From IMG/VR virus record IMGVR_UViG_3300046747_000291, positions 1-31,499 of that record: a stretch of DNA of 31,499 nucleotides, one strand, 5' to 3'. Below are positions 2 to 25,669 of the stretch, in pieces; positions within the stretch are counted from its first letter, which is position 1; each line of letters begins with the position of its first letter. This DNA comes from a virus. The notes under the pieces were generated by a model. The model worked only from the letters and a program-made list of their open reading frames with translations. It made no database searches and was not told the origin of the DNA. Both the position numbers and the translations under genes were made by a program.

Positions 2-1036
2 TTCTTCAATCAGTTGATCGAGATCGTCGGCAAGCAGGCGAAGAGCGGCTTCCTCATGGAAGAGGGCGTCGTCGAGGCGAAGCACCGCCGCGAATTCGAG
101 GACAACTACTCGAAGCCCGGAACGACTCAGATCGTCGCCGAGGGGTCGATCAGCGGCGGCAAGATCATGCCGAAGCCGCAGGGCGAGATCCCGCAGACGG
201 CGATGGGCATCCTTCAGTTCTGCACATCGTCGATGGAGACCGTGACCGGGCTCGTCCCGGCGTCTCTCGGCCTCGACAGCGGGAACGTACAGCAAGGGAC
301 ACAGCGCCAGCGCCTCGCCGCCGGGCTCGTTCTACTCGCGCAGGAATTCGATGCGCTGAAGGAATTCCGGATCGAGGAAGCCCTCATCTCGCAGGCCCTT
401 CTCAAGGTGATTGCGGACGGGCGGCAGATAAACGGCGGGCAAAACCCGTATGACAGCTTCATCGTGCGCCTCGACCGTAAGATCTTCGAGCGGATGTACG
501 CGATCTACTTGGACGACACGGAGCACGACCCGTCGCTCCGCGCACGCTTCTCGGCAACGATCATGGGTCTCATGCCGAATCTCATGCGGAGCGGGAACTG
601 GGTGCCGGAGCTCTGGGACTTCGTCTACGACCTACCGATGCGCGCCCGGGAATCGATCAAGAAGGCGTTCCAAGAGCAGCAGCAGCACCAGCAGGAGATG
701 ATCAAGGCAGGCTTCAACCCGTCCGGCAAGGGACAGCCGCGGGATCCGGTCGAGCAGCAGGCGAAGATCCAGAAGCTACAGGCCGAGGCAGCCGCACTCT
801 ACGGCCGGGCGGAATCGCTCACCAAGGGCCGCGCCGCTCGCGACTTCCACACCATCGTCACGGCCCTCGCCGAGGCCGAGCGAGTCAGGCTCGACCAGCA
901 CGACGCTGCGCTTGCCGCGGACGAGCACGCTACCAACGAATCGAAGTCGATTGTCGACATCGCCCACCGTGTGTCCGACCTCTACAGCCCGGCTCCCCAA
1001 AAGCCCGACAAGGGCAGTAGCTGGTCGGATACCTAG
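2..1036 (+). CDS. Portal protein, C-terminal part (5' truncated by window edge)
   Basis: The reading frame is open from base 2, so the N-terminal part lies outside the window; about 344 residues are visible. The portal is the dodecameric ring at one capsid vertex through which DNA is packaged and released. The visible part has the helical wing and crown character of podovirus portals: a stretch around 'GLVPASLGL' and 'GTQRQRLAAG' followed by a long amphipathic helix, then a Gln-rich helical C-terminus. The position directly before a scaffold-like gene and upstream of the major capsid gene agrees with this. A TTG at 14 is in frame but is not a credible start, because the protein is too short for a portal from there. 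The family call rests on remembered resemblance and gene order, not on a search. Confidence 0.75.
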   Translation, partial: FFNQLIEIVGKQAKSGFLMEEGVVEAKHRREFEDNYSKPGTTQIVAEGSISGGKIMPKPQGEIPQTAMGILQFCTSSMETVTGLVPASLGLDSGNVQQGTQRQRLAAGLVLLAQEFDALKEFRIEEALISQALLKVIADGRQINGGQNPYDSFIVRLDRKIFERMYAIYLDDTEHDPSLRARFSATIMGLMPNLMRSGNWVPELWDFVYDLPMRARESIKKAFQEQQQHQQEMIKAGFNPSGKGQPRDPVEQQAKIQKLQAEAAALYGRAESLTKGRAARDFHTIVTALAEAERVRLDQHDAALAADEHATNESKSIVDIAHRVSDLYSPAPQKPDKGSSWSDT

Positions 1037-2269: not shown

Positions 2270-2938
2270 GTGGCAACGATCGAGATCAACATCACCTGCG
2301 ACGTGGCGGGCCGTCCAATCGACGGCTCGCCCTTCCAGGTGACACTCGAGAATATCCCGCAGTACGACCTCGTGAACGTGAAGACGCCCGTGACCGCGGC
2401 GGGTACCTATGCCCTCATCCGGGGCACGCACGGGGCTTTCCCGATCGTCCAGGCCCTACTCCTCATCAACAAGACGGAGCCGATCGCCTATCGGCTCCAG
2501 GGGCAGACGGACTCCGACATCGACATCGGCGCGGGCGGCATGCTCTGCCTCGTCGGCACGTACATGGACGTCGGGGCGGGGAACCTGAAGGCGAACCAGC
2601 CGGACGAGATCGGCACTATCGTCGGCTTCGTTGCTGGCCGGGGCATGCCTCCGAGGGTGCCGTCGACGCTCGTTGTGGACGAGCGATGGGAAGCCACCTA
2701 CGTCATCCCGACGACGCTCGTCATCGACGAGCGGTGGGAAGGTACCTATCCGACGCCGACCGTGCTCGTCGTGGACGAGCGGTGGGAAGGCACCTATCCG
2801 GTGCCGTCGACCCTTCTCGTTGACGAGCGCTGGGAGGGGACTCTCTGCGTGACGAACGTTCTTGCGGTTCACGAGGACTTCGAGAGCGAACTTTGCGATA
2901 CACCGAACCTCGCCGTGCATGAGGACTTTGAAAGCTGA
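2270..2938 (+). CDS. Structural-type protein with paralogous N-terminal domain and six 16-residue C-terminal repeats
   Basis: The start is GTG 2270, six bases after the scaffold stop; 222 residues. Residues 1-125 form a beta-rich domain clearly related to the product of 4287-4670. Shared features are GSP near residue 20, 'YRLQGQTD' against 'YRFQGQTD', a following AGGM, and D-x-GAG. Residues 131-222 are tandem copies of a 16-residue unit centred on 'VVDERWEGTY'. The last two units diverge to 'AVHEDFES', and the gene stops inside the sixth. The stop shares one base with the next start (TGATG). The function is unknown. The location between scaffold and capsid genes suggests a head decoration or head-fibre protein, but this is inference. 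Confidence 0.6.
   Translation: MATIEINITCDVAGRPIDGSPFQVTLENIPQYDLVNVKTPVTAAGTYALIRGTHGAFPIVQALLLINKTEPIAYRLQGQTDSDIDIGAGGMLCLVGTYMDVGAGNLKANQPDEIGTIVGFVAGRGMPPRVPSTLVVDERWEATYVIPTTLVIDERWEGTYPTPTVLVVDERWEGTYPVPSTLLVDERWEGTLCVTNVLAVHEDFESELCDTPNLAVHEDFES
2660..2935 (+). repeat. 48-bp in-frame tandem repeat (16 residues x 5.75)
   Basis: Units begin at 2660, 2708, 2756, 2804, 2852 and 2900, with no length change between copies. Each encodes a unit of the form P-T/S-x-L-V-V-D-E-R-W-E-G-T-Y-x-x. Units 1-4 keep DERWE; units 5-6 read HEDFES. The array runs to the stop codon. Confidence 0.9.
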
Positions 2939-3585
2939 TGGCACTCGCCGACTGGACAATTGCCTCCGACGACTCCGCGGTCTGGACGCTCAACTCTATC
3001 TACACGATCAAGGGAACGTTCTCCGGGGCCGTCTTCGCTCAGACGCCGACGACCAATCTCGCGAACTACGTCGTCGGCTACTCGCTCGCGCCGGTCAATC
3101 AACAGTGCGGGCGGATCCGCACGATGTACAAGTTCGACCCGACGCTACGCGGGAACGACTCGATGGGTGTCTTTTGCCAGATGCAGACCTCGATCGGGAC
3201 GAACCGGCAAGCCTACATCGCGCTCGTGAAGTTCCTGGGCGCGACGTGCAGCCTCCACAAGAACAACATCGTGACGGCTAACGGCGAAGTCGGCCTCGCG
3301 CAGGTACCTTACGCGACCCCAACGCTCGGCTCGGTCTACGCGATACAGCTCAACTGGCAGACGGACCCGGTGTCCGGAGACATGCTCCTCATCGTGTCGC
3401 TGGATGGGCCGATCGCGAGCCCCTCGACTTACGACTACTCCACGCTCGTGGACGTCATCAGCTACACCGACTCAAGCTCGCCCCTGACGACCGGCTACAC
3501 GGTCGGCCTCGCGGGCCGGATCGAGGGTGTGGGAGTCCCTGGGCACTATCAACTCTATGACGGCGTCGACATCTACACAGACTAG
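2938..3585 (+). CDS. Hypothetical beta-rich virion-type protein (paralogue of 3598-4275)
   Basis: This 215-residue protein has an ATG at 2938 that overlaps the preceding stop by one base, so translation is probably coupled. It opens 'MALADWT', matching 'MALGDWT' in the product of 3598-4275, and both share a central block ('GVFCQMQTSIGTNRQAYIA' against 'GVFAVMQTSLGVASQCYAA'). The composition is rich in Thr, Ser, Tyr and Val with alternating hydrophobics, as in a concanavalin-like beta sandwich or fibre domain. No signal peptide or catalytic motif is seen. A head-attached or surface-binding role is inferred from the structural context only. I do not recognise a named family. Confidence 0.55.
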   Translation: MALADWTIASDDSAVWTLNSIYTIKGTFSGAVFAQTPTTNLANYVVGYSLAPVNQQCGRIRTMYKFDPTLRGNDSMGVFCQMQTSIGTNRQAYIALVKFLGATCSLHKNNIVTANGEVGLAQVPYATPTLGSVYAIQLNWQTDPVSGDMLLIVSLDGPIASPSTYDYSTLVDVISYTDSSSPLTTGYTVGLAGRIEGVGVPGHYQLYDGVDIYTD

Positions 3586-3597
3586 GAGACACGGCAA

Positions 3598-4275
3598 ATG
3601 GCGCTCGGTGACTGGACCTACGTTCACTCGGATACGAATTCGGCTACCGTCAACGCGGTTCTAAGTTCCGCCGAGACGCTCGAGCAGGTAACATCGCTCA
3701 TCCATCAGGTGGACGCCGCGAGCATGGCGTCCGCGCTCGACTCGATGGACGTGATGGGCTGGACGGCGGGAGTGACCGACGACACGGTGCTCGCGCGGAC
3801 GTGCGTGAAGTTCGTCCAGTCGCTCTACGGCGTCTTCGCCGTCATGCAGACGTCGCTCGGCGTCGCTTCCCAATGCTACGCGGCGACCTACAAGAACGAC
3901 GGGACGATTGCGCTCTGGAAAGCGACGATCACCGAGATCATGAACTCGAGCGTCTCGCCGATCGTCACCTACATGGGGGCCGCGCCGTCGTCGGACACCT
4001 GGGGGCTCTCGCTCCTCACGCAGTACGACTCGATTACGAACCAGATGCAACTCACCGTGTCGACGACCGACTCCGCGCAGACGCTCCCGCTCGAGGTCGC
4101 CGCCGCGCCGTACCCGACCGGGGAGTTCCCGGACGTGACGACCCGGATTACCTATATCGATCCGAGCCCGATCACGAGTGGCGTGAACGCCGGGATCTTC
4201 AGCGCGCAGCTCGGCACGTTCACCGCGGGCACGCAGCTATCGGACTTCGACCTCACGCAGATCTTCATCCCGTAA
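3598..4275 (+). CDS. Hypothetical beta-rich virion-type protein (paralogue of 2938-3585)
   Basis: This 225-residue protein starts at ATG 3598, with an aggaga ribosome site just after the upstream stop. The N-terminus and the central MQTS block match the product of 2938-3585, which indicates gene duplication. The C-terminal half differs more, with insertions such as the region around residues 120-150. There are only two cysteines and no signal peptide. Together with its neighbours it completes an A-B-B'-A' arrangement of duplicated genes. The function is unknown; a decoration or adhesion role is a guess from location. Confidence 0.55.
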   Translation: MALGDWTYVHSDTNSATVNAVLSSAETLEQVTSLIHQVDAASMASALDSMDVMGWTAGVTDDTVLARTCVKFVQSLYGVFAVMQTSLGVASQCYAATYKNDGTIALWKATITEIMNSSVSPIVTYMGAAPSSDTWGLSLLTQYDSITNQMQLTVSTTDSAQTLPLEVAAAPYPTGEFPDVTTRITYIDPSPITSGVNAGIFSAQLGTFTAGTQLSDFDLTQIFIP

Positions 4276-4286
4276 GGAGGGAGTAG

Positions 4287-4670
4287 ATGCCGCAGGTACA
4301 GATCATCATCGAGGCGTCGATCGACGGGCACCCGCTCCCCGGGTCGCCCTACATCCAGCAGTCCGCCGTCGTCACGCAGGTCCAGGCAATCAGCGTCCAG
4401 AAGGGAGTCGACCTCCCGAACGTCTTTGCGACGATCCCGACAGTCGATGCCTTCGAGGACATCTACATCCTGCTCCTCCTGAACCCCGACGCGCAGCTCG
4501 TCTACCGTTTCCAGGGGCAGACGGACGCGGGAGTCGTGGTACCGGCCGGCGGCATGATCCTCATCAGCGGAGCGATGCTCGACAGCGGCGCGGGGACGAA
4601 CGTGCTCGTCAACAACTCCAACAGCAACACCGCGGCGACGATCACCGGGTTCGTGGCGACCATCGAGTGA
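4287..4670 (+). CDS. Hypothetical small structural-type protein (paralogue of the 2270 gene N-terminal domain)
   Basis: This 127-residue protein starts at ATG 4287, preceded by a strong ribosome site (aaggagg, 4274-4280) overlapping the upstream stop. It corresponds to residues 1-125 of the 2270-2938 product and lacks the repeat tail. Shared landmarks are the IDG-P-GSP N-terminal segment, 'YRFQGQTD', AGGM, D-x-GAG and a closing GFVA. It has no cysteine. The strong ribosome site suggests high expression, which would suit a decoration protein, but nothing in the sequence proves this. Confidence 0.55.
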   Translation: MPQVQIIIEASIDGHPLPGSPYIQQSAVVTQVQAISVQKGVDLPNVFATIPTVDAFEDIYILLLLNPDAQLVYRFQGQTDAGVVVPAGGMILISGAMLDSGAGTNVLVNNSNSNTAATITGFVATIE

Positions 4671-4688
4671 GCGAGGAGGGAATCCACC

Positions 4689-5112: not shown

Positions 5113-5131
5113 ACTCGACTCTACACCAGGG

Positions 5132-5265
5132 CCTCCTTGACTGTCGAGGGTTATCCGTAGTGAGATGAGTCTTCGGCTCTCCCGAGCCACCTCGGGGAGG
5201 GGATAACGACCGGCAGTCGAGCCCCCCCCCGGGGCATTCCGCCCCGGCCCTCCTTGACTGTCGAG
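5132..5265 (+). repeat. Two copies of a 17-nt direct repeat, 117 bp apart
   Basis: The sequence cctccttgactgtcgag occurs exactly at 5132-5148 and 5249-5265. Each copy contains TTGACT, which resembles a bacterial -35 box, but no good -10 box lies 16-18 bp downstream of either. Other gtcgag motifs (near 5214 and 5287) lie in the same stretch. Candidate roles are a phage-specific promoter or a regulator-binding site. Confidence 0.55.
5179..5247. other. Two further hairpins between the 17-nt repeats
   Basis: The arm ctcccgag (5179-5186) pairs with ctcggggag (5191-5199) with one bulged G. The arm ccggggc (5229-5235) pairs perfectly with gccccgg (5241-5247) around an attcc loop. In addition gttatcc (5150-5156) can pair with ggataac (5201-5207) and enclose the first hairpin. 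Together these suggest a folded RNA between the two repeats. Confidence 0.4.
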
Positions 5266-5459: not shown

Positions 5460-6632
5460 ATGGAAACCGTTGTTCCCGCCGGGGACGCAACCGCTGTAGT
5501 AATCTACAGCCACCGCGTCTTCTACCAGGCGATCCGCTCCACGGTCGCTGCCAAGCTGATGGCAGTCGGCTTGAATCCGAAAGATCAGACCAACTACGTA
5601 CAGATGTTCGACGAGTCCATGAAGGGCCCGGGCGATACCATCAAGTACGATCTCATCCCGAATCCGCAGGGCCCCGGCGTTGCGGGTGACGGCGTGCTGG
5701 CCGGCCAGGAAGTCGCTTTCACCTGGTTCCAGAACACGTTAACAATTAACCAGCTCCGCCAGGCCGAGCTCCTCGTCGGGCGCATGTCGCAACAGCGCGT
5801 GCCCTACTCGATGCGGGACGTCGCGAAGGTCGGACTCGCCAACTGGTGGAAAGAGACCATCGACTACGGTCTTCTGAACCAGCTCGGCGGAAACACGTAC
5901 ATCTCGAATGCCGCCAACTTCTGGGGCACCAACATGAGCGGCATGCAGGCCCCGGTGGCACCGGATTCCAGCCACTGGATCTTCGCCGCAGGACGGGCCT
6001 CAGAGGCGACTCTCGCCCAGGGCGACGTCTTCACCGTGGACCTGATCCCGACTTTGGTCGCGAAGGCGCAGGGAACCCTCCAGTTCCCGATCAAGCCGGT
6101 CGTCATCAAGGGAGTCGAGATCTCGGGCGTTCTCTTCCTTCACCCCCTGCAGGTTCGCTCGTTGAAGCAGAACTACACGCAGGGCGAGTGGGGCGACATC
6201 TTCCGTGCGGCCCTCCAGGGCGGGCAGATCACCGGGAACCCGATCTTCACCGGGGCTATCGGCATGATCGACAACGTGGTCATCCACCAGGATTCCCATG
6301 TGCCGTACGGCGACACGAGCCAGAACACCGTGCAGCTAGCGATCAACGGGACTCTCGTCACGAAGGGCGCACCGAATGCGCTCGGCGCGGCGGCGGTCGG
6401 CGTGACCTCGATCTGCCGCGGTATCTTCGTAGGCGCACAGGCCGCAGCACTCGCCTTCGGTGGCGAGGAAGGCCCCGACGGCAAGCCCCTTCGGGTCAAG
6501 TGGACCGAGGAGCTTCTCGACGGCGCAAACCAGCTCCGCATTTCCGCGGGCATGATCTGGGGCTGCCAGAAGACCGTCTTCAACAGCCAGGATTACGCGA
6601 CCATCGTCGTGTCGTCCTACGAGACGGCGTGA
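5460..6632 (+). CDS. Major capsid protein, N4 gp56 / DUF4043-like
   Basis: This 390-residue protein starts at ATG 5460 behind a gaggtgg ribosome site. It would form the icosahedral shell. The N-terminal part ('YQAIRSTVAAKL', residues 23-34), the block 'FTWFQNTLTINQLRQAE' (about 83-99) and the later 'GVLFLHPLQVRSLKQ' read like the N4 gp56 family of capsid proteins with an HK97-type fold, and the length fits. The gene sits after portal, scaffold and a long leader, as expected. It has only two cysteines. The family assignment is from recognition of these motifs without a search; the capsid role is fairly secure from context. Confidence 0.8.
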   Translation: METVVPAGDATAVVIYSHRVFYQAIRSTVAAKLMAVGLNPKDQTNYVQMFDESMKGPGDTIKYDLIPNPQGPGVAGDGVLAGQEVAFTWFQNTLTINQLRQAELLVGRMSQQRVPYSMRDVAKVGLANWWKETIDYGLLNQLGGNTYISNAANFWGTNMSGMQAPVAPDSSHWIFAAGRASEATLAQGDVFTVDLIPTLVAKAQGTLQFPIKPVVIKGVEISGVLFLHPLQVRSLKQNYTQGEWGDIFRAALQGGQITGNPIFTGAIGMIDNVVIHQDSHVPYGDTSQNTVQLAINGTLVTKGAPNALGAAAVGVTSICRGIFVGAQAAALAFGGEEGPDGKPLRVKWTEELLDGANQLRISAGMIWGCQKTVFNSQDYATIVVSSYETA

Positions 6633-8048: not shown

Positions 8049-8330
8049 ATGCGGCGATTCCTGATCCTCCTGGCGTTACTCAGCGCCGGGGTGGCTTTTG
8101 CCCAAGTCATCAATGACGGGAGCGGGGCAAGCGCGATCCGCAAGTACAAACCGCCGACGATCGTCATAGACGAGACGCTCGGCGGAGACGCGGTCGGCCA
8201 GCGAGGCGTCTTCGTACCGACTGCCAATCCGACGTTCACGCCGACGGCTACCGCGACTCCTACTGCAACCGCGACGCCGACGGCAACCGCGACGCCGACG
8301 TCTACTCCAACGGCAACGCCGACTCCCTGA
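8049..8330 (+). CDS. Signal-peptide protein ending in a Thr-Pro repeat tail
   Basis: This 93-residue protein starts at ATG 8049, with aagga (8038-8042) as ribosome site. Residues 1-18 are a Sec signal peptide ending AFA. A short hydrophilic part follows, then from about residue 55 a tail of TPTATATP-type units to the stop. The same kind of Thr-Pro segment appears twice in the 22511-25669 product. Such runs are normally extracellular spacers between domains. Here nothing follows the spacer, so the gene may be a truncated or minimal version of a larger exported protein. The stop overlaps the next start (TGATG). Confidence 0.55.
   Translation: MRRFLILLALLSAGVAFAQVINDGSGASAIRKYKPPTIVIDETLGGDAVGQRGVFVPTANPTFTPTATATPTATATPTATATPTSTPTATPTP
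8239..8325 (+). repeat. Thr-Pro coding repeat
   Basis: An exact 18-nt unit (gcaaccgcgacgccgacg) occurs at 8265-8282 and 8283-8300, with degenerate copies around it. It encodes TPTATA-type repeats in frame. Confidence 0.8.
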
Positions 8331-22510: not shown

Positions 22511-25500
22511 GTGGCGGTGCGGAAGCAGTACAAAGCGCTTGCGGCGCTAGCGTTCACGGCGCTCGTGTCGATTGGCGCAGCGACCACGAGCGGCAACATC
22601 ACCATCAAGGGGAAGGCTCACCACGGGGCCGGGCGGCGCGTACCGACGACTACGCCGACTTTGGCACCGACGGCTACGCCGACCCGGACGCCGACCCCGG
22701 TGGCAACGCCGACGAGGACTCCGACCCCCATTCCGACCAACACTCCGGGACCGACCGCAACGGCGACTCCGACTGCGACCCCGACTCCCGCCTGGTCCGG
22801 GTGGGGCGCGAATACGCTCGGCGGCGCAGGCGGCTCGACCGTTCACGTCACGAATACGAACGACTCGGGCGCGGGGAGCCTCCGTACGGCCCTCTCGGCT
22901 GGCAACCGGACGATCGTCTTCGACGTCGGCGGCACGATCACCTTGGCCTCTCGGCTCCTCGTCGTCGGCAACTTCGTCACGATAGACGGGACGACCGCGC
23001 CGGGCGCTGGCATCACGATCACCGGCTACTCGCTGCGCCTCGAGGGCGTCCACGATGTCATCATCCAGAACATCCGCTCGAGGACGCCGACGCTCGACAC
23101 GGAGCCTGACAACATCACGATCAAAAACGGCGTCTACAACGTCGTTATCGACCACGTCTCGACGAGTGGCCCTCTCGACGGGAACATCGACATCACCAAT
23201 GACAGCCACGACATCACGGTGCAGGACTCGATCTTGGCGAACGGCACCAAGGCGATGCTGCTCAACTACGGCGCCTACCATGTGAGTCTCCACGGGAACC
23301 TCTGGATCAACGAGCAGTACCGGCAGCCGAATACGCAGTACGACGACGCGGCAACTTCCGTCTCTCCGGATGTCATCTCGGACGTCCGGAACAACGTCAT
23401 CTGGAACTGGGGAGACTCGGGCGGCGGCTCGATCTGGCAGTGCGGCGGCGTCGGGAACGACGTCAAGAACTACTACTATTCGGGCGCGACGACTGCGCCG
23501 CGAAAAGCGAACGGCATCGTAAACGACGGATGCTCGGGAGGCACCGCGCAGCCCGTCTTCTACACGGCGGGAAACGTCAGCGGCGACGACTCGTCTTCGC
23601 ATCTGAACGGAATGGGCACGACCTCGACCGAGCAGATCGCGGCGCCCATCAATGGCGAGCAGACCGCGTGCAACGCCGCAATCAGCATCACGTCGACTGC
23701 CGGTGCACAGCCGCTCGACGCGACGGACACGGCCCTCCTCGCTTCGGTTACGCTCCCGGTTTGCTGGACGCCGACTCCGACGCCGACCGCGACAAGGACT
23801 CCGACAGCGACCCCGACTCCGACCCGTACCCCGACGCCGACGGCTACGCCGACCAATACGCCTATGGGCGCCCCAACGGCGACGCCGACGAATACCCCGA
23901 CCGCGACGCCGACTCCTACGGCGACGCCGACGAATACGCCGACCCCAGTCCCGACGGCGACTCCTACGGCGACCCCAACAGCGACGCCCACAGCTACACC
24001 TACGGCGACGCCGACGGCGACGCCTACAGCTACGCCGACGGCGACCCCGACGGCGACGGCCACTCCGACGAGGACACCGACCCCGACTCCGACCGCGACG
24101 CCGACTGCGACACCTACGGCAACGCCGACGCCGGCCACCGGGACGAACCGGATCGTTCCGCAAACCGACCTGACCTATCTCGGAGCCTTCCGGGTTCCGA
24201 ACGACGACAACGTGAACTGGCAGTTCAGCGGCCTCAACATGACCGTGAACCCGGGCGGAGACAGCGGGAACGGATCTCTCTACGTCGCCGGCTTCACCGC
24301 CGCGCCGAATGGGACCGGGAAATTCGCCGAGATCAACATTCCGACGCCGATCAACAACCCGGACATCAATGCGCTCACGCGCGCAACGACCCTCCAGGCG
24401 ATGAGCGATATCGCTCCGGGGCTCCACCCGAGTAACACGAATACGACCTTCCAGATGAGTGACGTGCTCTTCGGAGCCGTCGGCGGGAAGCTCATGTGGA
24501 CGCGGTACATCTTCTACCTGCCGGCAAGTGAGGCGACGCTCGGATGCGCCTCGACGACCATCTCGTCGCCCGCGACCACGGGGCCGTGGAAGATCGGCCC
24601 GACAGAGACCACCAACTACGGAGGCTCGACCCTCGGCCGCTGGCTCTTCCTTCTGCCGCAAGCCTGGGCAGACGTACACACGGGAGGCCGAGCACTCGGA
24701 ACCGGGCGGTTCCGGACGAACGCCAACTCGGGTGGCACGTCCTGGTCCCCGTCCCTATTCGCGACTCAGCTTGCCTGCGATTCGACCGTGTCGGACGCCG
24801 TTGAGGTGATGCACAACACCTCTCGCGAGACCCGCTGGGCGCACGAGTCCTGGGGCGACGATTGGCACGGAGCGGTCTGGCTGACGACCCCGACCGGGAA
24901 CAAGGCAGCGATGGTCGTTGCCGGGAAGAAAGACGAGCGGGAAGACGGCGGCACAGCCTGCGGCTTCCAGTTCTGCGGCACCGCCCGGGGAGCCATGTAC
25001 TACGGCATCCCGCAACCACATGACTGCGGAGGCAAGGGGAACCACGGGGCTCCAGTCACCGGGGCTCTCATGTTCTACGACACGAACGAGCTCGGGGACG
25101 CTGCCGACGGGTCCATCCCGAAGGACTCGATCGACCCGTACGCGATCTTCCAGATAAAGGCCCATCAGTACGCGACGAGTCAGTGCCAGAACGGCGGCTT
25201 CGGGGGCGTGGCGTACGACACGACACACCACAAGCTCTACGTGGCGGAGCTCCGCGCCGAGTTGCCGCTCACGTCGAATAAGCCGGTCATTCACGTCTTC
25301 TCGGTCGCCGACGGCGGCGGAAGTGTCGACACGACGCCTCCGGCCGTGCCGGCAGGGCTCCACACGACGAGCGTGTCGGGCACGGGCGTAGCGCTTGCCT
25401 GGAACGCGGTGACGGATCCGGCCGGTGGCGTTGTGTACCTCGTCTACCGTGATCCGATTGACCAGGTGCTGAATCCTCCCGAAACGACGGTGCCCTATGG

Positions 25501-25669
25501 GCAGAGGTATCCGGCCGGGCCGCAGCCCTTCGCGATTACGACGGGGCTTACCTACACGGACAGCCTAGAGATCAACAGCGGCGTTACCTACACTTATTAC
25601 GTGGCGGCAAAGGATGCGGTCGGGAACACCAGCGTCAAATCGGCTGGGGTGACGGCCACAATCCCATGA
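22511..25669 (+). CDS. Exported multidomain protein: pectate-lyase-like domain, Thr-Pro linkers, C-terminal FN3
   Basis: This 1052-residue protein starts at GTG 22511 (GTG 22517 also possible); upstream the frame is closed at 22487. Residues 1-25 form a Sec signal peptide. A Thr-Pro linker (44-93) leads to a right-handed beta-helix domain of polysaccharide lyase family 1 type (about 96-415). Its landmarks are '[12 protein letters not shown]', '[11 protein letters not shown]', 'VVIDHVSTS' and '[18 protein letters not shown]'. A second long Thr-Pro linker (420-543) precedes a beta-rich domain of unknown type (about 545-938), then a fibronectin III domain (about 941-1052). Four cysteines lie in the lyase domain and six in the third domain. 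It probably degrades or binds an acidic polysaccharide at the host surface. Confidence 0.7.
22640..22789 (+). repeat. First Thr-Pro linker coding repeat
   Basis: Degenerate acNccgacN-type repeats encode about 50 residues of TP, TATPT and TRTPT units between the signal peptide region and the lyase domain. Confidence 0.8.
23768..24138 (+). repeat. Second, longer Thr-Pro linker coding repeat
   Basis: About 124 residues of [12 protein letters not shown] and TRTPTP units, coded by degenerate ccgacggcgacg-type repeats. They join the lyase-like domain to the unknown beta domain. Confidence 0.85.

Follow-up and report, generated by a model that had tools for sequence, protein, structure and literature searches.

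Repeat units exchanged together with a downstream lectin-like gene suggest attachment points for a separate protein in four uncultured phages

The adhesive capsid decoration proteins Hoc of T4, pb10 of T5 and gp17 of N4 carry their sandwich domains covalently (PMC7602432). In the branched receptor-binding complexes of the CBA120 tailspikes and the RaK2 tail fibres, docking is by folded N-terminal domains (PMC10253068). Phage Ig-like domains are also appended to structural proteins by frameshifting (PMC5009743).

The locus described here lies in a window of 31,499 nucleotides (positions 1 to 31,499 of IMG/VR record IMGVR_UViG_3300046747_000291), in which an anchor protein ends in short tandem peptide units and is followed by genes for separate, lectin-like proteins (clients). 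As in Hoc, pb10 and gp17, beta-sandwich domains are presumed to be displayed on the virion surface for attachment, but the sandwich proteins are here separate and of ConA-like, not Ig-like, type, and a peptide array would hold them. Unlike capsid decoration proteins, the present arrays are also found on tail-region anchors. As in CBA120 and RaK2, several different receptor-binding proteins would share one anchor, and parts are swapped between phages (PMC10253068); docking would instead use short tandem C-terminal peptides, of two classes on one chain. The likeness to the appended Ig-like domains is that of a mobile adhesion domain on unrelated head and tail proteins near a frame junction, but here the proteins have separate starts, a recoding signal was not found, and nothing in those domains corresponds to the tandem units.

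In cohesin–dockerin scaffoldins a scaffold presents repeated, type-specific sites to separate client proteins, and in pilus donor-strand systems a beta sandwich is completed by a strand from another chain. In contrast to both, the elements here are 16-residue peptides and not domains, and the surface would be that of a virion and not of a cell. Neither anchors nor clients match a cohesin, dockerin or pilin family in Pfam or NCBIfam, and the locus is not classed with the scaffoldins. A literature search found no donor-strand or strand-complementation device tied to phage heads or tail fibres. The purpose would be common to the known adhesion systems, and the construction different.

The anchor gene and its repeat array

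The neighbours of the anchor gene include a fragment of a P22-like portal gene, a gene in scaffold position and the gene for the major capsid protein. The features are as follows, in window coordinates.

2..1036: P22-like portal fragment (PF16510, 1.2e-14)
2270..2938, + strand: anchor gene, 222 aa with a GTG start, N-terminal domain plus C-terminal array (ORF call; 55% identical ortholog in the relative L007)
2270..2659, + strand: anchor N-terminal domain, paralogue of the 4287-4670 product (36% identity, E 3e-17)
2660..2851, + strand: four class-1 units (DERWEG), 16 residues each
2846..2935, + strand: two class-2 units (C-x7-HEDFES), counted from the Cys codon; the same class is found in the relative L001, and is diverged in L007
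4287..4670, + strand: stand-alone paralogue of the N-terminal domain, lacking the array (protein comparison, alignment)
5460..6632, + strand: major capsid protein (PF13252, 5.6e-47; PHROG 334, 2e-60)

Residues 1-124 of the anchor form the domain that recurs as the separate product of 4287-4670. Its gene position, and the presence of the stand-alone paralogue near the capsid gene, suggest that it may attach the anchor to the virion, where the stand-alone protein could co-assemble with it. The stand-alone copies of the window and L007 (L007:7718-8098) are 69% identical, and both lack an array.

The array occupies nucleotides 2660-2935 exactly, as five units of 16 residues and a last one of 12, and forms the C-terminus of the anchor. 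The units are, in order, PSTLVVDERWEATYVI, PTTLVIDERWEGTYPT, PTVLVVDERWEGTYPV, PSTLLVDERWEGTLCV, TNVLAVHEDFESELCD and TPNLAVHEDFES. A tandem array is also detected at the DNA level at 2660-2835 (Tandem Repeats Finder; period 48, score 163), and a degenerate two-unit pattern matches the window four times, with 0.00 matches expected from 100 dinucleotide shuffles. No significant further units were found elsewhere in the window or in the contigs of the relatives, and the array has no match to any Pfam, PHROG or NCBIfam family. An earlier note on this DNA had described almost six 16-residue repeats ending a head-region gene, with a shift to HEDFES in the last two. Their position and lengths are exactly as it claimed, the portal and capsid matches agree with its placement, and the shift is real and marks a second unit class. 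As refuting outcomes the note had named membership of a described domain family, or a local expansion lacking in relatives. The first is answered by the database result above, and the second by the relatives, which carry arrays of their own and in L007 have the same copy number of 4+2 as the window.

Three relatives carry the array. L007 (IMG/VR 3300033412_000067) is syntenic with the window, and its anchor ends in four IDERWE and two RELFE units. In L001 (IMG/VR 3300046747_000203) the anchor is another protein, 321 aa long and ending in three HEDFE units, with a pectate-lyase-like gene nearby. The anchor of L017 (IMG/VR 3300022562_000952) is 131 aa in length, ends in four IDERW[ED] units, and follows a 1224-aa ORF at a short distance, apparently among tail genes. 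The anchors of the four phages are of three unrelated kinds, each with the array at its very C-terminal end, so the connection with head genes that the note drew holds for the window, whereas two of the four cases lie in tail regions. The whole case comprises these four phages (the window, L007, L001 and L017), none of them cultured and partly related by descent or exchange.

Two pattern scans across the whole IMG/VR collection found no true arrays beyond the three relatives; the other candidates that they returned (L008, L009 and L021-L025) are chance matches. In about 85,000 bacterial and archaeal genomes a pattern search gave 42 stretches with the anchor pattern and 51 with the two-unit pattern, none of which is a tandem array. 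No relatives of the anchor or the clients were found among about 50,700 named phages. The L017 anchor gave weak matches in Aeromonas phages, with a best E of 0.05; these overlap an opposite-strand hypothetical gene in the one case inspected and were dismissed as chance, as were weak partial matches of the L007 fusion in named phages (E 3 or worse).

The client proteins

The array is followed directly by two client genes.

2938..3585, + strand: client c1, 215 aa, its ATG overlapping the anchor TGA; ConA-like by AlphaFold2 and Foldseek, 87% identical in L001
3598..4275, + strand: client c2, 225 aa, paralogue of c1; 66% identical in L007, with no separate c2 gene on the L001 contig

In all four phages the gene right after the array encodes a member of a single family of about 210-225 residues, with pairwise identities of 26-87% and N-termini reading MALADWT, MALADWT, MALSDFT and MSIAQWT. 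In the window and L007 a second client, c2, comes directly after c1. A family profile run against those IMG/VR stretches that have one conserved block matched only the contigs L007, L001 and L017, so that remote members may be missed. Searches of Pfam and NCBIfam with the client sequence found no family match.

The AlphaFold2 model of c1, made from six sequences, is a beta sandwich with pLDDT 70 and pTM 0.76, in which residues 1-38 fall below 50. Foldseek comparison of the model with the PDB gives matches with E from 2.3e-6 and probability 1.00, at TM scores of only 0.4-0.5, to legume lectins, GH16-type glucanases, VIP36, CBM66 and many phage proteins. A concanavalin-A-like (ConA-like) lectin/glucanase fold of the legume-lectin/GH16 type is predicted for c1 on this basis, and the clients may bind carbohydrate. 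No signal was obtained when the client profile was compared with two sandwich proteins of named phages (hhalign).

Two unit classes and an exchanged block

The earlier note had treated the units as one family. There are instead two classes, probably with two different partners. Class-1 units (DERWE/D) number four each in the window, L007 and L017 and are absent from L001; class-2 units (HEDFE or RELFE) number two in the window, two in L007 and three in L001, and are absent from L017. In the window both class-2 units carry a cysteine eight positions ahead of the H of HEDFES. A cysteine at -8 is present in 7/7 class-2 units and in 0/12 class-1 units. A cysteine column is likewise shared by the three c1-type clients and is missing from the two c2 clients and the L017 client (0/3), while the c2 clients have a cysteine of their own (column 73), for which the units hold no counterpart.

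The unit classes track the client types, and divergence runs in parallel. Class 2 is the only unit class in L001 and c1 its only client type; between the window and L001 the class-2 cores are 88% identical and the c1 proteins 87%. Between the window and L007 the corresponding values fall to 33% and 36%, with 76% for the class-1 cores and 66% for c2. Few independent events stand behind the pairing of cysteines and of classes, and the fit is imperfect in L017, where the client is nearer to c1 than to c2 by BLAST score despite its class-1 units.

DNA comparison separates one part of the locus from its surroundings.

2846..3602, + strand: exchange module, class-2 units plus c1 (blastn match 2865-3602 at 82% to L001, with ungapped extension to 2846)

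In this region the window matches L001 as a single block that begins in the first class-2 unit and reaches the start of c2, and that ungapped comparison extends to the Cys codon at 2846. No match to L001 was found for the N-terminal domain or the class-1 units upstream, or for c2 downstream. The matches to L007 cover 2294-2790 and 3598-4683 and beyond, and the gap between them takes in the class-2 units and c1 and, at its margin, the last class-1 unit. Since the L001 match covers just what the L007 match omits, the class-2 units and c1 are best read as one mobile module, swapped as one piece and nested between the class-1 units and c2.

This co-exchange as a block is the strongest evidence for a functional tie between the class-2 units and c1. 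It is possible that the end of the array was carried along passively with the adjacent c1 gene. Yet on anchors that are unrelated, the transferred flank, the class-2 units, remains in frame and retains its cysteine. The exchange of these units with their downstream lectin-like gene suggests that the protein it encodes attaches at each repeat.

The class-1 units are old and preserved at the protein level. In the ten-residue cores of units 1-4, pS is 0.73 and pN 0.15 between the window and L007; within the window, units 1, 2 and 3 differ from unit 4 with pS of 0.81-0.98 and pN of 0.09-0.14. Units 1-4 are thus under purifying selection. Units 5 and 6 have diverged from those of L007 in protein sequence (pN 0.43-0.51), in step with c1.

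A docking model and its alternatives

We put at somewhat better than even the chance that the array is a virion-surface docking rail on which each unit class holds its own lectin-like client. Tandem conserved units under selection and the co-exchange of a unit class with its client were both found, and they point to a partnership of this kind. The earlier note's suggestion of multivalent docking gains indirect support from purifying selection, from the same downstream family in four phages and from the exchange of the unit class with its client as a block. From these we infer binding, class-to-client pairing, stoichiometry, virion attachment and sugar binding, as follows. The N-terminal domain of the anchor would fix it to the virion with the flexible C-terminal array pointing outward, and each 16-residue unit would hold one copy of the ConA-like, lectin-type protein encoded by the adjoining downstream gene. 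Class 2 (C-x7-HEDFES) would pair with c1, and class 1 (DERWEG) with c2 or, in L017, with its single client. An anchor would then carry about four copies of c2 and two of c1, and these clustered carbohydrate-binding-like domains would serve the particle in adhesion. A further client would be acquired by insertion of its units and gene together at the array/client junction, and this would account for the nesting seen in class 1, class 2, stop, c1, c2.

The docking could be by donated strands, a more specific version that we hold tentatively and regard as rather doubtful. Each unit would be the missing first beta-strand of a client, so that an anchor would complete four to six lectins; class-2 pairs would perhaps be disulfide-locked to the client cysteine, and cassettes of strand units plus lectin gene would be swapped between head and tail anchors. 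The idea arises because the clients start near a W/F-T/S motif, which in one cis domain, the Foldseek match LIT1 ORF53, follows an E-x-F strand, and because the client N-terminus is poorly defined in the model. The units also resemble GH16-like motifs, which we take to support a first-strand role. An AlphaFold cis read-through fusion of the anchor array and client (pLDDT 52) is too low in confidence to interpret.

It is unlikely that the units are structural beta-repeats in the shaft of a homo-oligomeric fibre, with the downstream proteins independent or at the tip of the stalk. Shafts built of short repeats, the triple beta-spiral among them, have a repeat length near 15-20 residues, and units that recur regularly every 16 residues and contain a short hydrophobic stretch would suit one, as would the short strand in each class-1 unit of the low-confidence fusion model. 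The protein ends with the array, however, and has no terminal trimerization or knob domain; the spacing is loose, L007 and L017 having intervals of 16, 18 and 25 residues. A shaft would also leave unexplained the exchange of class and client as a block and the same neighbouring family on unrelated anchors.

Very little probability is given to the client being at least in part a C-terminal extension of the anchor, produced by read-through or frameshifting, with the last unit as its first strand in cis. Frameshift-appended Ig-like domains are known (PMC5009743), and the client is in the anchor frame behind the stop in L001 (TAG ATG), L007 (TAA CAC ATG) and L017 (TAG CCG ATG), and in the -1 frame in the window, where its ATG overlaps the anchor TGA. 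Yet every client has an ATG with a preceding Shine–Dalgarno-like site, that of c1 lying within the last unit.

2921..2925, + strand: GAGGA, Shine–Dalgarno-like site of c1 (seen in the sequence)

A conserved recoding arrangement lacking a separate start was not found, as frame, stop and spacing vary between the phages; no slippery heptamer was seen at the window junction when read by eye. Alternative reading of the stop codons was ruled out, all three being in ordinary use. Separate translation of anchor and client is supported by the Shine–Dalgarno-like sites, by the ordinary stop use and by the variation in stop codon and spacing among the four junctions. An extension would in addition leave four to six tandem unit copies unexplained.

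Equally improbable is a recombination scar, in which the units are functionless tandem leftovers of ConA-like domain starts at a hot spot for lectin-gene swaps. The exchange-block boundaries inside the array would be expected of such a scar, as would the likeness of the units to the first strand of ConA-like domains (LIT1 ORF53 being the one cis example), but the 4+2 copies have been kept between orthologs of 55% identity, pN is low where pS is high, and the units are in frame on unrelated anchors. Exposed tandem peptides could also bind a host or environmental ligand directly for avidity, with the lectin-like neighbours acting separately and the client gene adjacent anyway, but this has a slim chance given that unit class tracks client type and that one class has been exchanged together with its client.

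If the docking rail is correct, phages would own a plug-in attachment system in which class-specific short peptides hold separate lectin-like proteins on the head or tail, and adhesins could be added or exchanged without redesign of capsid or tail proteins. The model predicts class-specific binding between a 16-residue peptide and the 215-residue protein cognate to it. Such peptide/protein pairs could serve as small orthogonal display tags.

Some other features of the window and the L001 contig were observed. The large gene at 22511-25669 encodes long PT-rich repeat linkers and in its N-terminal half resembles pectate lyases (PF00544, 1.4e-5); it matches NF041900 with E 3.5e-23, yet far below the family cut-off. 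The L001 contig has a relative of this gene (74-77% DNA identity) adjoining the array cassette. Between the capsid gene and the array cassette of that contig (L011:8484-13155) the translations read as epimerase-like and glycosyltransferase-like ORFs, suggesting a phage-encoded sugar-modification cluster. A small secreted-looking PT-repeat protein is encoded at 8049-8330 of the window and contains PPTIVIDETLGGD; its faint class-1 likeness (E 0.48) is not significant. A near-identical phage from another sample (L018, IMG/VR 3300046656_000224) is represented by a contig running from inside c2 through the capsid gene, with the array outside it. Ahead of the major capsid gene, in non-coding DNA, GGSCCTCCTTGACTGTCGAG occurs twice, at 5129-5148 and 5246-5265, 117 bases apart; the duplication, with 0.00 expected by chance, is present also in L018. 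TTGACT lies within this sequence, which may act as a promoter or regulatory site of the phage.
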